NCBI GenBank assembly: GCA_009937065.1 | Contig: JAACDF010000238.1 | Coordinates: forward strand, 1-36,122 | Direction of reading: 5' to 3' | DNA from: Gammaproteobacteria bacterium | GTDB lineage: Bacteria > Pseudomonadota > Gammaproteobacteria > Pseudomonadales > Halieaceae | Length of the DNA stretch: 36,122 nt | Shown here: positions 14,871-18,894 of the stretch, in pieces | How the letters are laid out: each line of letters opens with the position of its first letter | Numbering within the stretch: the first letter of the stretch is position 1 | Notes under the pieces: generated by a model | Seen by the model: the letters and a program-made list of their open reading frames with translations, nothing else | What the model was told of the DNA's origin: nothing | The model's database searches: none | Made by a program: the position numbers and the translations under genes

Positions 14871-15329
14871 CTAAGGCCTTTTCTCGAGCCTATCCAGCAG
14901 TAGTTGAAGCGCGGCGATGCTTTTTTCGTCATGTGCTGTTTCAAGTGCGTCCTGAAGCACCTCTTGAATGTCCTTCGTATCAACGAGCTCCATATCCCAA
15001 GTTGGGAAAATTCGCTCACGAATCTCCTCATCGGAGCTCAGAATCGCCATCTTTTCATGTCGAGAATCAGCTTCTATACGACTCACAAGTTCTAAAACCT
15101 TAGACTTGGGACCCTCGATCCATTGGAAAAACACACCCGCTCCGAACACCAAAATTCCGGTAATTCCAAGTATTGGATTAGAGCGCCGCGCAGTCGCGAT
15201 AATGGCATCAACATCGGCTTGTTCAATACCGGGGCTTACTTGACTACAGTAGACAAGGTTGAAGAGTAGGTACTCTTCAAAAGCATCCTCGGGCTCATCT
15301 AGCAGCGCAGATTTTGATAGTTCATTCAT
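14871..15329 (-). CDS. BLUF-domain blue-light photoreceptor
   Basis: 152 residues from the ATG at 15329; a longer frame to 15392 adds a stretch that overlaps an unrelated gene fragment. The flavin site matches AppA exactly in spacing: Tyr27 (LVYCSQ), Asn51 (RRSNPILGITGIL) and Gln69 (VFFQWIEGP), with Trp111/Met113 in FPTWDM. A 20-residue acidic N-terminal tail precedes the domain and a ~35-residue helical tail (VLQDALETAHDEKSIAALQLL) follows; there is no attached EAL or other output domain, so it must act through a partner protein. Its promoter side abuts the repeat-rich island, with the nearest fragment starting 45 bases upstream. Confidence 0.88.
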   Translation of the reverse strand: MNELSKSALLDEPEDAFEEYLLFNLVYCSQVSPGIEQADVDAIIATARRSNPILGITGILVFGAGVFFQWIEGPKSKVLELVSRIEADSRHEKMAILSSDEEIRERIFPTWDMELVDTKDIQEVLQDALETAHDEKSIAALQLLLDRLEKRP

Positions 15330-15373
15330 GACACCACAGTACCCTGCGGTACAACCCAAGCAAAGGATTAATC

Positions 15374-15577
15374 GAGGAAACAGTCGAAACACTCGTTGAT
15401 GCCGCCCGAAACGGTCGTACAGATGCCGCTAGAGTCTCAGCCGCTAACGCCCTTCTCGACCGAGCTTATGGCAAGCTCGCGGCGAAAGAAGAAACGGAGA
15501 TAGCGGACTTGCCACCAGTAGCTATTCAGCTGACAGGGCCGCATAACGACTGCAAAGCAAACAGAGAATTGTTATGA
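15374..15577 (+). pseudogene. 3'-terminal fragment 1 of the small phage-like gene
   Basis: The frame reads EETVETLVDAARNGRTDAA, continues RVSAANALLDRAYGK, and ends with LPPVAIQLTGP and a 12-residue tail. It is clearly homologous to the complete gene at 15779, but the first ~38 residues and a start codon are missing; the upstream frame hits a stop at 15329 with no start between. The end of this fragment touches the 107-bp direct repeat that holds the decayed tRNA-Pro. The 449 bases between the BLUF gene and the complete copy hold only this fragment, the decayed tRNA and two short repeats. Confidence 0.75.
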
Positions 15578-15683
15578 ATGGCTTAGGTAAGCTAAAAAAG
15601 ATGGTCGGGACGGCAGGATTTGAACCTGCGACCACCACACCCCCAGTGTGGTACGTTACCAGACTGCGCTGCGCTCCGAAGGC
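15577..15683. repeat. Direct repeat, left copy (tRNA-Pro and 25 bp of its 3' flank)
   Basis: Matches 18788-18894 at 103 of 107 positions by my alignment; the first 76 bases (to 15652) are identical and cover the 3' flank, acceptor 3' strand, T arm and anticodon arm of the tRNA. The four differences are all transitions in the tRNA 5' half. The identical part ending in the tRNA anticodon arm is what an integrase attachment core in a tRNA gene looks like. Confidence 0.75.
15602..15678 (-). pseudogene. Degenerate tRNA-Pro(GGG) copy
   Basis: Same 77-nt frame as the intact tRNA at 18813, CCA and GGG anticodon kept, but with changes at linear positions 4 (G to A, breaks an acceptor pair), 8 (conserved U8 to C), 23 (G to A, breaks a D-stem pair) and 26 (C to U, G-U in the D stem). 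The promoter found upstream of the intact copy is absent here because homology ends 5 bases beyond the tRNA 5' end. It is therefore read as a non-functional copy. Confidence 0.7.
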
Positions 15684-15686
15684 TAC

Positions 15687-15706
15687 TGGGTAACAATTGG
15701 GTAACA
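15687..15706. repeat. Two TGGGTAACA direct repeats, 11 bp apart
   Basis: TGGGTAACA occurs at 15687-15695 and 15698-15706, one helical turn apart, immediately inside the island from the decayed tRNA copy. Helically phased short repeats beside a tRNA attachment core resemble arm-type binding sites of tyrosine integrases. That function is inference; no integrase gene is present in the window. Confidence 0.4.
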
Positions 15707-15778
15707 TTTTTCGGGAATTACGCGCCTATATCGAGCTATAATTGGCTTTGATTTTGGTTTGATTTCTGAGGCTTGTAA

Positions 15779-16054
15779 ATGGCTCGTGGTGGCTTTCGAG
15801 AAGGAGCAGGACGTCCATCAGGCTCCACCAACAAATCCTCTCCTGAGCAGTCTCAGCGCCTCTCAGAGCTTGCTAAGACTTATACCGAAGAGGCACTCCA
15901 AACACTCGTTGATGTCGCCAGAAACGGTCGTACAGATGCCGCCAGAGTCTCTGCCGCTAACGCCCTACTCGACCGAGCCTATGGCAAGCCAGCCGTTAAG
16001 GAAGAAAAAGAGATAGTGGACTTACCACCAGTGGTTATTCAGCTCACTCAATAA
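15779..16054 (+). CDS. Small basic phage-like protein (GGxREGAGRPxGSxNK type), complete copy
   Basis: 91 residues. The N-terminus GGFREGAGRPSGSTNK (residues 4-19) is a glycine/arginine-rich motif common in small phage proteins, some next to terminase genes; then a helical part (SQRLSELAKTYTEEALQTLV) and RVSAANALLDRAYGKP, ending EIVDLPPVVIQLTQ. I would not name it terminase small subunit without a search. GAGG lies 7 bases before the ATG and a TATAAT box is at 15737-15742, though no good -35 is seen. Its last codons differ from the three fragments: homology stops at ATTCAGCT, and the others continue GACGGGGCC, so the present 3' end was probably replaced. Confidence 0.65.
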   Translation: MARGGFREGAGRPSGSTNKSSPEQSQRLSELAKTYTEEALQTLVDVARNGRTDAARVSAANALLDRAYGKPAVKEEKEIVDLPPVVIQLTQ

Positions 16055-16186
16055 ATACCTCGTCGACCACACCGAAATCTTAATAAATCTGCAACTTACA
16101 CAAAGCTTCGGCGTGCTAGTTTCCCTATGGGTATGTAGTTTTCCCACGCAAGAATCAAAACAATTTATTAGCACTAGGGGATTAAT

Positions 16187-16909
16187 ATGAAACACCTATC
16201 TACCGCGATTTTGCTCGCAATTGCATCAGTCAGTCTTTCCGTTCATGGAGCTGAACCCAATTGGTCAAAGTTTCAGGCCAACTTCTATTTTTCCTGTTCG
16301 GTTGAAGCAGATTGCGTTCGAGAATACAGCAACCTCATGTCTGCACCTGAGATAGCCGACAAAAAGTTCGAGGCGGCACTCTACTCAATGGCTCACAACG
16401 GGATGGACGACGCCACGCATGTGATGCGTTTTTATTTTAAAGACGCCGCAGAGTACATGAAGGCAGGACAAACATTTTCCACCTCTCCAGCTATGGCTGA
16501 ATTTTTAGCATTTGGCAGACAGGCAGGAAATGAACCTGAGTACCAGACATTAACAACACACACGATTGCGGAAGGTGACCCACGAGGCACCAAAGCGGCA
16601 CTGCGATGGAGTATCAACGTAACTGACCCTGCGACTTTTGTGCCTGCGTGGACAAAAATGGCGGCCGCACTTGCTGAGAAGCCATGGGGCGGGAAAGCCT
16701 ATGGACTCCAAACTTACTACCTCGGAAGTCTTGGGGCAGTTACTCACGAGGTCTGGGTGGGCTTCGACTCACCAGTCGAGGCACTCACATTCCTAGATGA
16801 ATTTCCAAAAACCGCCGAATGGCAGTCTTACAGTGCTGACGTTGAAGGTGCAGTAAGCATGGTCCGCGCTTATATGGAGTTGACTGCCATCAGCCTCAAC
16901 GAAGACTAA
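16187..16909 (+). CDS. Secreted protein of unknown function, tandem ABM-like (dimeric alpha/beta-barrel) halves
   Basis: 240 residues with a clear Sec signal peptide (MKHLSTAILLAIASVSLSVHG, cleavage near AxG-A at residue 22) and AGGGG 7 bases before the ATG. The mature protein seems to have two similar halves; the second (ALRWSINVTDPATFVPAWTK ... HEVWVGFDSPVEALTFLDEF) has the strand-helix-strand-strand-helix rhythm of antibiotic-biosynthesis-monooxygenase-like domains and resembles the second half of the next gene. Two cysteines (FSCSVEADC) could form a disulfide. First of three cargo genes in the island. No enzymatic motif is visible. Confidence 0.65.
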   Translation: MKHLSTAILLAIASVSLSVHGAEPNWSKFQANFYFSCSVEADCVREYSNLMSAPEIADKKFEAALYSMAHNGMDDATHVMRFYFKDAAEYMKAGQTFSTSPAMAEFLAFGRQAGNEPEYQTLTTHTIAEGDPRGTKAALRWSINVTDPATFVPAWTKMAAALAEKPWGGKAYGLQTYYLGSLGAVTHEVWVGFDSPVEALTFLDEFPKTAEWQSYSADVEGAVSMVRAYMELTAISLNED

Positions 16910-16968
16910 ATTCGCACTTTAATGGGCGCCTCCCTCTTTGAGTGCGCCTCACTATCGAGGAGATAGCA

Positions 16969-17661
16969 ATGAAACTTATATCCACATACTTGGGTGTCTT
17001 GTTTGGTGCCTTTGCCATCAGCCATGCCGCCGCCAATCCTGTAGTGAATGTCATTAATGTACAAACTGATGACCCTGCTGGATACACTGAATATCTTGCA
17101 AAAAACCCGCAGATATTTGAGTCGTTCGGAGCAGTTACTGGCGGCACATGCGTCACACTCACGGGTCACAGGTATCCAAATCAAGCGTTTGCTTGGACTA
17201 TCTACAACACGCCAGCCGATGCTTACAAATCTGCTACCGCCTTTGCTATGGCGCCAAAGAATCCAACGATGGAAAGCATGCGCAAAGTTGTGTCTGCTGA
17301 GATGTATGCGGTTTTGAAGCCGTTTACCTTACCGTCAGGATTTGAGCGTCGATTTCAGCTAGTCGTTAACGATGTGCCGAAGTACATCGAGGCCGCTATC
17401 GAGCTAGAGAAAGGCTGGCAGGCTAATGGGCATAATGTAGAGATTGGCGTGTTCATGCCCCTAGGAAAGGGCGAAACTTCGGCCAATCAACTTGATGTAC
17501 GTATCTTTGGTGTAACACCAGAGGCGGCAGGTAAGTTGAGCTTAGAGTTGATGGGACAACCCTCGTGGAACCAAGCGGCCGCGGCAAAACTGGCAAGCAC
17601 AGTGGAATCTGTCGAGCTTGATACCTTCGAGATGTGTAAGCAGGTGTACCCAGCCAGCTAA
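16969..17661 (+). CDS. Secreted paralogue of the preceding protein, ABM-like fold
   Basis: 230 residues from the ATG at 16969, which has GAGGAGAT 4-5 bases upstream; the frame opens further up at 16942 but that would hide the signal peptide. Signal peptide MKLISTYLGVLFGAFAISHA. Both halves look like ABM-type units: VVNVINVQTDDPAGYTEYL opens the first, RRFQLVVNDVPKYIEAAIEL the second, with RIFGVTPEAAGKLSLELM near the end. Lies 59 bases after the preceding gene on the same strand and ends at a terminator. Function unknown; scavenging or binding of a small hydrophobic compound would fit the fold, but that is a guess. Confidence 0.65.
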   Translation: MKLISTYLGVLFGAFAISHAAANPVVNVINVQTDDPAGYTEYLAKNPQIFESFGAVTGGTCVTLTGHRYPNQAFAWTIYNTPADAYKSATAFAMAPKNPTMESMRKVVSAEMYAVLKPFTLPSGFERRFQLVVNDVPKYIEAAIELEKGWQANGHNVEIGVFMPLGKGETSANQLDVRIFGVTPEAAGKLSLELMGQPSWNQAAAAKLASTVESVELDTFEMCKQVYPAS

Positions 17662-17674
17662 ACTCAGCAAAACA

Positions 17675-17694
17675 GGGCGCGTGAGCGCCCTTTT
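17675..17694 (+). terminator. Rho-independent terminator
   Basis: GGGCGC-GTGA-GCGCCC followed by TTTTAAT, 14 bases after the stop of the second ABM-like gene. A perfect 6-bp G+C stem with a tetraloop. It would separate or attenuate transcription into the third gene at 17715. Confidence 0.75.
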
Positions 17695-17714
17695 AATCAA
17701 TAAGGAGACGCCAA

Positions 17715-18020
17715 ATGGCCGAATTAGTCGTCCTAAATTTCAAGGCCGCCGAGGGCAACTTTGATGCTTTAGCTGACATGTTCAGAGCTGTATTAGGTGA
17801 CACTCGGGCTTACGACGGATGCATAAAAGTAGACGTCTACGAGGATAGAGATAGCTCTACTATCACTTTGGTTGAAGAGTGGGAAACGCTCGCACACCAG
17901 CAAAAATATCTCGGGTGGCGAATTGAAACAGGTATCCAAGAAGCTAATAAAGATATCTTAGAAGGTGGTTTCGATAATGGAGTCACAGTCCATACATGGG
18001 GCAGTAAAAAAGACTACTGA
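17715..18020 (+). CDS. ABM-domain protein (putative quinol monooxygenase-like)
   Basis: 101 residues, AAGGAG 7 bases before the ATG. Single cytoplasmic ABM domain: AELVVLNFKAAEGNFDALADMF (strand 1, helix 1), TRAYDGCIKVDVYEDRDSSTITLVEEWE (strands 2-3; the EEW is typical) and a second helix with HQQKYLGWR. Such proteins are small dimeric barrels; some (YgiN, ActVA-Orf6) oxidise quinols without a cofactor, others are only structural relatives. Third member of the ABM-like trio in the island, but unlike the other two it has no signal peptide. It ends 49 bases before fragment 3 of the repeated gene. Confidence 0.72.
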   Translation: MAELVVLNFKAAEGNFDALADMFRAVLGDTRAYDGCIKVDVYEDRDSSTITLVEEWETLAHQQKYLGWRIETGIQEANKDILEGGFDNGVTVHTWGSKKDY

Positions 18021-18069
18021 AGCCACATCTGAGGTTGGCATAGCATGATGACCTCATGACCCACTATAC

Positions 18070-18156
18070 CGAGGTTACGGAAAGCCAGCGGTTAAACAAG
18101 AACAAGAGATAGTGGATTTACCGCCAGTGGTTATTCAGCTGACGGGGCCGAGCTAG
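18070..18156 (+). pseudogene. 3'-terminal fragment 3 of the small phage-like gene
   Basis: Homology to the complete gene begins at codons for RGYGKPAVKQEQEI and runs through VDLPPVVIQLTGPS to TAG. Only the last ~28 codons remain. It follows the ABM cargo and precedes the small secreted-protein gene, whose 3' end runs through it on the opposite strand. Confidence 0.7.
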
Positions 18157-18451
18157 CCAATAAGTAACGGCATTTAGGCACCTGTTTATCCAATTTTGTT
18201 CTATCGACTACGAGCGCTGTAAGTTCAGCAACTGTCAAATACTCTACTGCGAGGGTCGCCATACAAACGCAAAAATCCCTCAACGCTTGACTGTCTTCTC
18301 GTTCCGCAGAGCAGGATTCGATAAAACTTTTTTTGAAATTAGTTGTAAAAGCTTCGTTGAATCCCCCTTTGAAGTCGGAGCTATGAGCCGTCAGCGACAA
18401 CCCAAAAAATAGCGTGCAGAGAAACCCTGACATGGCCTTAGTTGCCTTCAT
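18131..18451 (-). CDS. Small secreted cysteine-containing protein, unknown function
   Basis: 106 residues from the ATG at 18451, with GGAG 6-7 bases upstream. N-terminal signal peptide (MKATKAMSGFLCTLFFGLSL, cleavage near HS-S). The mature part has four cysteines (ESCSAE, DFCVCM, PKCRY), with the FCxC motif and a following EYLTVAEL segment seen in many short proteobacterial periplasmic proteins of unknown role. The last eight codons and stop (LLASSAPSAE region) are the antisense of fragment 3, so its natural C-terminus was likely replaced when it arrived. Second cargo unit of the island. Confidence 0.6.
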   Translation of the reverse strand: MKATKAMSGFLCTLFFGLSLTAHSSDFKGGFNEAFTTNFKKSFIESCSAEREDSQALRDFCVCMATLAVEYLTVAELTALVVDRTKLDKQVPKCRYLLASSAPSAE

Positions 18452-18577
18452 CAATCACTCCTCAAAAAATATTAATTCCACTTCTAATAGCTGTGGCGCA
18501 AATCACTCACAGATAAAAAGGTAGTACGGAAATTGAGCTTTGCAAAATTAAGACGGATGAAATCGTCAAATAGATAG

Positions 18578-18697
18578 GCCCTTCTAGACCGAGCATATGG
18601 CAAGCCAGCGGTTAAAGAAGAAAGGGACATTGTGGACTTGCCACCAGTGGTTATTCAGCTGACGGGGCCAAGCATGGATAAGTTTGGTGAGGCTTAA
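18578..18697 (+). pseudogene. 3'-terminal fragment 4 of the small phage-like gene
   Basis: Reads ALLDRAYGKPAVKEERDIVD, then LPPVVIQLTGPSMDKFGEA and TAA. The longer tail makes it the best candidate for the original 3' end of the gene, displaced here by the cargo inserted after the complete copy. The 360-base stretch between the small secreted-protein gene and the tRNA holds this fragment, the 25-bp tRNA flank of the direct repeat, and about 90 bases (18698-18787) with nothing recognisable apart from a weak CCC/GGG hairpin followed by ATTTTTT near 18720-18737. Confidence 0.7.
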
Positions 18698-18787
18698 TCT
18701 TCTGCTGAACCCGTTCCTGACCCCTTCGGGATTTTTTCTCGCACCCATTGCGATACCGAACCGATACCGCGCTTCAACCCTTCTGCA

Positions 18788-18894
18788 AATGGCTTAGGTA
18801 AGCTAAAAAAGATGGTCGGGACGGCAGGATTTGAACCTGCGACCACCACACCCCCAGTGTGGTGCGCTACCAGACTGCGCTACGCCCCGAAGGC
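18788..18894. repeat. Direct repeat, right copy (with the intact tRNA-Pro)
   Basis: Partner of 15577-15683. Contains the functional tRNA-Pro and 25 bp of its 3' flank, including the small palindrome GCTTAGGTAAGC. Homology stops 5 bases beyond the tRNA 5' end, just before the tRNA promoter. Confidence 0.75.
18813..18889 (-). tRNA. tRNA-Pro (anticodon GGG)
   Basis: 77 nt with encoded CCA. Acceptor CGGGGCG pairs with CGTCCCG, D stem GCGC/GCGC, anticodon stem CCACA/TGTGG with loop CTGGGGG (anticodon GGG), variable loop TGGTC, T stem GCAGG/CCTGC with TTCAAAT. All stems pair. It lies 41 bases after the merR stop on the same strand and serves as the right boundary of the island. Confidence 0.95.

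Follow-up and report, generated by a model that had tools for sequence, protein, structure and literature searches.

Repeated 3' ends of a terS-like gene as putative joints of cargo exchange in a probable satellite-type island of a Halieaceae bacterium

How does one small gene come to stand complete once and three more times as a bare 3' end, with cargo genes between the copies? The question is raised by a stretch of 36,122 nt (contig JAACDF010000238.1 of assembly GCA_009937065.1, a Halieaceae gammaproteobacterium), the whole of which is called the window below; related genomes, contigs and loci carry our own labels (G, C and L, respectively). The explanation we consider probable is that positions 15602-18889 are a decayed phage-satellite-type island, without an integrase, at a tRNA-Pro gene and beside the remnant of an older island. 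The complete gene would be its terS, a relative of phage terminase small subunits, and its cargo would have been swapped by recombination at the terS 3' end.

The four-copy array is real and far beyond chance. A repeat search of the window finds the same 92 nt of the gene's 3' end at 15449, 15962, 18058 and 18578, together with a 162-nt repeat pair at 15373/15886. A DNA profile of the gene, built from nine complete relatives, recovers all four copies with E from 3e-20 to 8e-97, and gives no match at E<1e-3 in 20 rounds of shuffled sequence. Both searches agree with the first-pass annotation, which had described one complete gene (15779-16054) and three 3' ends with cargo between them:

15779..16054, + strand: complete terS-like gene, 91 amino acids (aa) (profile match 15780-16047; phrog_2538, phrog_15261)
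15362..15577, + strand: terS 3' end no. 1, joined to a BLUF gene (profile match 15362-15534, gene nt 96-269)
18053..18156, + strand: terS 3' end no. 2, joint behind an ABM gene (profile match 18053-18143, gene nt 179-269)
18577..18697, + strand: terS 3' end no. 3, tail PSMDKFGEA (profile match 18577-18663, gene nt 183-269)

The homology break described in that annotation is likewise present: the complete copy terminates in ATTCAGCTCACTCAATAA, and the fragments have ATTCAGCTGACRGGGCC at the corresponding place. The suggestion that PSMDKFGEA, the tail of the last fragment, is the natural end of the gene has to be abandoned. Fragments are found, but never an intact gene with that tail, which is absent from all 10 complete copies; none of the copies inspected runs on into the sequence after 18655 (a direct join was not searched for separately). 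The tail sequence of 3' end no. 3 is common to a T5orf172 block of G004, where sequence similar to it stands ahead of the T5orf172 gene.

Judged by its sequence, the gene is related to the small subunits of phage terminases, hence the name terS. Among PHROGs it matches phrog_2538 (terminase small subunit) with a modest score (E 5e-6) and phrog_15261 (unknown function) with E 2e-17; the former is matched by 8 of the 10 complete copies and the phage family of unknown function by all 10, the window's included in both cases. Just two records of the phage collection match the window gene; the gene directly upstream of a Terminase_6N-matching gene in Acetobacter phage phiAX1 contains a 44%-identical match (query aa 6-71). 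A profile scan of IMG/VR for terS gave four distant loci, and the open reading frames (ORFs) were read for two of them, L132 and L134. In virus contig L134 (9749-11282) a gene with the C-terminus DLPPVVIQLT, the same as in satellite terS, overlaps the start of a terL-like gene; the latter was recognised by eye, and the N-terminal part of its DLPPVVIQLT neighbour does not align. This virus contig is a possible relative of a helper phage. In known satellites, terS can steer satellite DNA into helper-phage heads. The AlphaFold model of terS (two helices, mean predicted local distance difference test score 61.5) was not used for any inference, and a search of solved structures gave 11 weak matches, the best of them designed repeat proteins, which were judged spurious.

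Related islands make it possible to ask which end of the gene survives truncation. Among 20 truncated terS copies (19 from the DNA-profile search and one found separately), the 3' end is kept in 16, the 5' end in one, and three are internal pieces. The 3' end is thus the one retained in 16 of the 17 fragments that preserve an end (binomial p 1e-4), a contig-edge fragment of L045 being counted among the 16 though its 5' limit is not visible. Weak matches in L224 (E 0.3) and L039 (E 0.5) were dropped, and L041's second copy (nt 8-263) was classed as near-complete. After related joints were collapsed by hand (to 11, or to 12 with the 5' fragment), 11 of 12 keep the 3' end (p 0.003). The sole 5'-keeping fragment belongs to a divergent terS in G038 (L042 7232-7450), about 50 bp from the 3' end of a tRNA-Gly. 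Since G002 and G004 are one contig each, such fragments are not only an artefact of broken assemblies. Their left limits are spread over gene nt 48-222. A fixed 5' limit was considered, as 4 of 7 limits fall within 11 nt (p 0.04), and rejected; with all 11 joints, 5 of which have limits at gene nt 172-189, the bunching is not significant (p 0.09-0.18).

The flanks of the joints were compared for 26 joints, comprising 10 complete genes and 16 fragments (left flank sufficient in 25); the three internal pieces were omitted, as were the divergent islands of G034, G035, G062 and G038 contig C17, and a flank was scored as shared at a distance of 60 nt with E 1e-4. The left flank is common to 20 pairs and the right flank to 12 (one of 13 right-sharing pairs was set aside, its left flank being missing), and both flanks are common only to C242 and G016. 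For fragments alone, a hand count from the list gives 7 left-sharing pairs, 4 right-sharing pairs and none sharing both. Some of the matching flanks are short, with 35-39 nt on the left side and 45-65 nt on the right.

In particular, the window, G036, G014 and G027 all have the ABM gene running into a terS 3' end, but what lies to the right differs in each of the four: the 107-aa gene, two further small ORFs, a terS end with tail B, and a block with a 159-aa gene. Other blocks keep their right side and change the left one. Three different neighbours stand to the left of the 159-aa block (ABM, another region, a globin-like gene), three to the left of tail B (a complete tRNA-Val-type terS, a 122-aa gene, ABM), and two to the left of the tail-A block with a 131-aa gene. 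Left and right blocks are therefore reassorted at the 3' ends of terS, and every right block comes with a 3' end of its own, which suggests that these ends may be joints where such islands swap cargo. Left blocks mostly retain their own fragment start and right blocks their own tail, as a crossover inside a shared 3' end would give. The expectation of the first-pass annotation that cargo would be flanked elsewhere by the same fragment is borne out: in G027 a terS 3' end stands on either side of the ABM gene, the outer of the two being truncated where the contig stops. Moreover, one contig of the metagenome-assembled genome (MAG) G008 carries a complete tRNA-Val-type gene with tail A and, about 16 kb downstream, a fragment with tail B, the tail of the tRNA-Val-type terS in G016 and C242; this is the geometry of a displaced original end.

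The first-pass annotation had proposed that elements target the 3' end of the gene and bring a replacement. One part of this scheme stands, as blocks are joined at the 3' end of one gene and the right block brings its own end, but the gene as the primary insertion target is not supported: the islands sit at tRNA genes. Two tRNA-Pro(GGG) copies, overlooked in that annotation, frame the array; they belong to a direct repeat of 116 nt, the two units of which are 93% identical and lie 3.2 kb from each other:

18813..18889, - strand: tRNA-Pro(GGG), copy beside merR, left attachment end of the island (ARAGORN; identical to the tRNA of the empty site in G009)
18788..18812, no strand: tRNA-Pro 3' flank, common to 15577-15601 and the tRNA-Pro loci of G002, G015, G027 and G036
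15688..15705, + strand: paired GGGTAAC repeats, 11 bp apart, putative integrase arm sites (pair recurs in G002 and G036)
15602..15678, - strand: second tRNA-Pro, altered 5' part, right attachment end of the younger island (ARAGORN)
15577..15601, no strand: attachment flank of the older island (repeat of 18788-18812)

In G009 this tRNA-Pro site is empty, with about 80 bp between the tRNA and a globin-like gene, the gene that lies beyond the array in the window. A GTTACCC pair 11 bp apart occurs in the stretch upstream of the distal tRNA copies in the window, G002 and G036, and again on the integrase side of the tRNA-Pro islands of G002 and G036 (the two ends of the latter lie on two contigs). 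The tRNA-Pro is followed by an open integrase-like gene in G036 and G027 and by a broken one in G002. The full integrase gene that comes after the tRNA-Pro 3' flank in G027 and G036 is missing in the window, where this flank leads straight into a remnant of a T5orf172 gene. As had been noted before, the window contains no integrase; when the entire assembly was searched for Phage_integrase, matches came from four places (C206, C150, C242 and C89), none on the window contig (C211). Because this flank recurs after the second tRNA copy and is succeeded there by terS fragment 1, an older island probably lies behind the younger one.

Counting the window's own genome, sequences like terS are present in 12 of 57 genomes of the genus and, at family level, in 13 of 140. 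Among named genomes, 8 of 12 terS-like loci belong to Halieaceae MAGs, which are close relatives, and the other four are distant; the loci of this search also come from Mesorhizobium, Bosea, Rhizobium and Streptomyces. Islands with terS were found at tRNA-Pro, tRNA-Val and tRNA-Ser, and those of the genus at tRNA-Val and tRNA-Ser hold a tyrosine integrase together with terS. In G036 the tRNA-Ser island encodes a CHC2-zinc-finger protein and an AAA protein, and the tRNA-Pro island an HTH_17 protein; no replication module or AlpA-like regulator was recognised in the window. The tRNA-Val site is empty in G002 and G014. In G016 and G004 an attachment copy of tRNA-Val nt 31-77 lies 7.9 kb and 9.1 kb, respectively, from the tRNA, followed by a terminator resembling that of the empty sites. 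The outer part of the G016 island may represent an older one, since its flank is found immediately behind the tRNA in G035; two genes resembling alkaline phosphatases by eye (L032 5735-9264) lie between the G016 satellite terS and the outer tRNA-Val copy.

Contig C242 of the window's genome also carries a tRNA-Val satellite, the integrase gene of which is open. All 3141 of 3141 bp compared between this satellite and that of G016 are identical (L227 1-3141, L032 9499-12639), while the chromosome aligned beyond this tRNA-Val over 2.4 kb is 79% identical. This points to a very recent move between species, though the identical 77-nt tRNA could also have let the metagenome assembler join two species.

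The remaining features are the cargo genes and their neighbours:

18694..18787, - strand: C-terminal remnant of a T5orf172-domain gene (91.5% over 130 bp to the G004 relative)
18131..18454, - strand: cargo gene, 107 aa, no family found (Pfam, PHROGs and defence-family scans)
17715..18020, + strand: cargo gene, ABM monooxygenase family (Pfam ABM E 1e-9)
16969..17661, + strand: cargo gene, DUF1330 similarity under the Pfam cut-off
16187..16909, + strand: cargo gene, 240 aa, no family (Pfam, PHROGs)
14871..15392, - strand: BLUF-domain gene beside the older remnant (family scan; also in G031)

The region 16969-17661 is collinear with the G036 tRNA-Ser satellite (88.8% over 1181 bp, including joint no. 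2), and the 240-aa gene is missing from this otherwise collinear block. Six other genomes contain relatives of the ABM cargo gene at 84-95% identity. A further set, at about 46-54% identity, occurs in several of the same genomes, the window's own among them, and therefore the cargo may stem from a host gene family. The intact T5orf172 relative in G004 is at L033 12951-13733 (Pfam T5orf172 E 4e-11). The terS-BLUF junction is common to the window and the tRNA-Pro locus of G007; in G031 a RecQ-like helicase gene (L116 1701-3527) fills the tRNA-Pro site between the integrase-side flank and the BLUF gene. Pfam and PHROGs scans recognised no structural or lytic genes among the window's four cargo proteins, and no recombinase gene was recognised among the cargo proteins scanned. 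A defence-family scan of 10 proteins matched only the G004 T5orf172 protein and the G031 helicase. Around the island, the ORFs of the window look by eye like housekeeping genes, not a prophage.

Under the explanation favoured here, cargo would sit behind the terS 3' end, where two satellites, or a satellite and a cargo block, would have about 90 bp in common. Recombination there would swap the downstream content; the incoming block would give a new 3' end completing terS, and the old one would be left on the far side with its own cargo. Repeated rounds would lead to the order complete terS, block, 3' end, block, 3' end. The exchange would be general recombination (homologous, perhaps phage-encoded), which fits better than a site-specific enzyme because the 5' limits of the fragments are not fixed. 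Cargo blocks may pass through circles, and the elements may be packaged by a helper phage, with which the apparent recent move of the tRNA-Val satellite between species is compatible. A bolder version, in which the terS 3' end is a dedicated exchange joint of a satellite gene pool and cassettes, each with a spare 3' end, insert by completing the resident terS, integron-like without an integron and powered by helper-phage recombination, is possible but doubtful.

Several observations weigh against the favoured explanation. Pairs compared by their flanks are not independent of one another, and in 13 of the 20 left-sharing pairs both members are complete genes. Some breakpoints lie outside terS: no terS end borders the ABM block on the right in G008, in G007 or in the second copy of G036, and none occurs within 1.5 kb of the ABM copy of G015. 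Fragments with the ABM left side in common are no more alike than unrelated ones (differences at 18-27 of 85 nt), so that the crossover cannot be placed. The best tRNA-Pro integrase (G036) scores 21.5 bits against a Pfam cut-off of 27.1, and the window's assembly (92% complete) contains no integrase of the tRNA-Pro type at E 1e-20. In IMG/VR no close relative was found for terS (by protein, profile or exact DNA scan), for one satellite AAA protein, or for the tRNA-Val integrase, the latter having 20 distant loci with best segments 20-46% identical; the terL-like gene, tried as a helper marker, matched 1 of 57 genomes, not the window's own.

The array could also have arisen by serial integration at tRNA-Pro, with random deletions then removing the integrases and the 5' parts of old terS copies, so that the 3' end would not be special. 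Two tRNA copies with the same flank point to at least two integrations at this site, the terS-BLUF junction found in G007 at the same locus means that part of the array is vertically inherited, and no integrase remains in the window. However, random deletion predicts neither the preference for 3' ends among end-keeping fragments, which holds after the joints are collapsed, nor the recurrence of the same blocks with different partners at terS ends in islands at other tRNA genes. As a full account it is unlikely, though serial integration and deletion surely contribute alongside exchange at the 3' end. A site-specific recombinase acting in trans on the terS 3' end as its attachment site, like integrases at gene ends or the integron integrase at attC, would produce the geometry of replacement and displaced 3' ends and could explain the bunched left limits; we regard it as very unlikely, given the spread of these limits and the lack of a recognised recombinase gene among the scanned cargo proteins.

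It is extremely improbable that the fragments were made by end-joining of packaged ends after terminase cuts at a pac site in terS. Eight complete copies show fewer synonymous codon differences in codons 4-40 than in codons 41-90 (0.20 vs 0.36, permutation p 0.001), as a DNA signal in the 5' half would lead one to expect, but variable synonymous columns do not differ significantly (19/29 vs 27/33, p 0.12), and fixed fragment limits are again missing. The lower synonymous divergence of the 5' half, for which the evidence is mixed, may mark a packaging signal or gene conversion.

If exchange at the terS 3' end is true, it would be a simple route for very small satellites to gain and trade genes without loss of the packaging gene, since each swap restores terS. 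It would also preserve, in readable form, the past exchanges of a marine lineage, and cargo genes separated by terS 3' ends would be a hallmark for finding more such islands. In literature on satellites, terS, cargo cassettes and marine islands, judged by titles and the starts of abstracts and covering few subscription papers, no description of terS 3' ends as cargo joints was recognised.

Integron cassette arrays consist of blocks that end in a short common repeat and are shuffled between carriers. Here, too, blocks ending in a common repeat, of about 90 bp, are shuffled between carriers; unlike in integrons, there is no integrase beside the array or elsewhere in the window, and the repeat is a coding 3' end whose start is not fixed.

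Phage-inducible chromosomal islands (PICIs), including the terS satellites of the Staphylococcus aureus pathogenicity island (SaPI) type and gram-negative PICIs, are similar to the islands described here in the features given in the available part of PMC6092414: an integrase (here in the relatives), specific attachment sites, terS, accessory cargo, and no structural genes recognised among the proteins scanned. The window itself has attachment copies at a fixed site that is empty in relatives, and terS by sequence relatedness. Since the integrase gene present at the tRNA-Pro loci of G036 and G027 is absent, the window island would be a decayed relative of PICI-like satellites, not a complete member. 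In contrast to PICIs, the islands are small (3.2 kb in its decayed state in the window, up to 9.1 kb delimited in G004), different integrases go with one near-identical terS, and terS 3' ends separate the cargo blocks. Helper-embedded PICIs (HE-PICIs) are linked to phage late genes, and one PICI can lie inside another as a composite (PMC10111431, in the portion available). In HE-PICIs the late genes are the target of a dedicated integrase clade, whereas no integrase was recognised in the blocks described here and the gene belongs to the satellite itself; the window, with no integrase and by eye no prophage, holds no integrase-bearing element splitting a prophage late gene.

Phage-inducible chromosomal minimalist islands (PICMIs), virion-encapsidated integrative mobile elements (VEIMEs) and tycheposons are likewise marine islands integrated beside a host gene. 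According to the accessible parts of PMC10803314 and PMC10872708, PICMIs are small and tycheposons carry cargo and a tyrosine recombinase at tRNA genes; PICMI115 has no terS homologue found in PMC10803314, whereas the window island has terS. Finally, additive flexible genomic islands, as described in the same available part of PMC10872708, contain recurring repeats of the last 20 bp of tRNA-Lys. In those islands the repeated unit is the end of a tRNA gene, while here it is the end of a putative phage packaging gene, in an island that itself sits at a tRNA.

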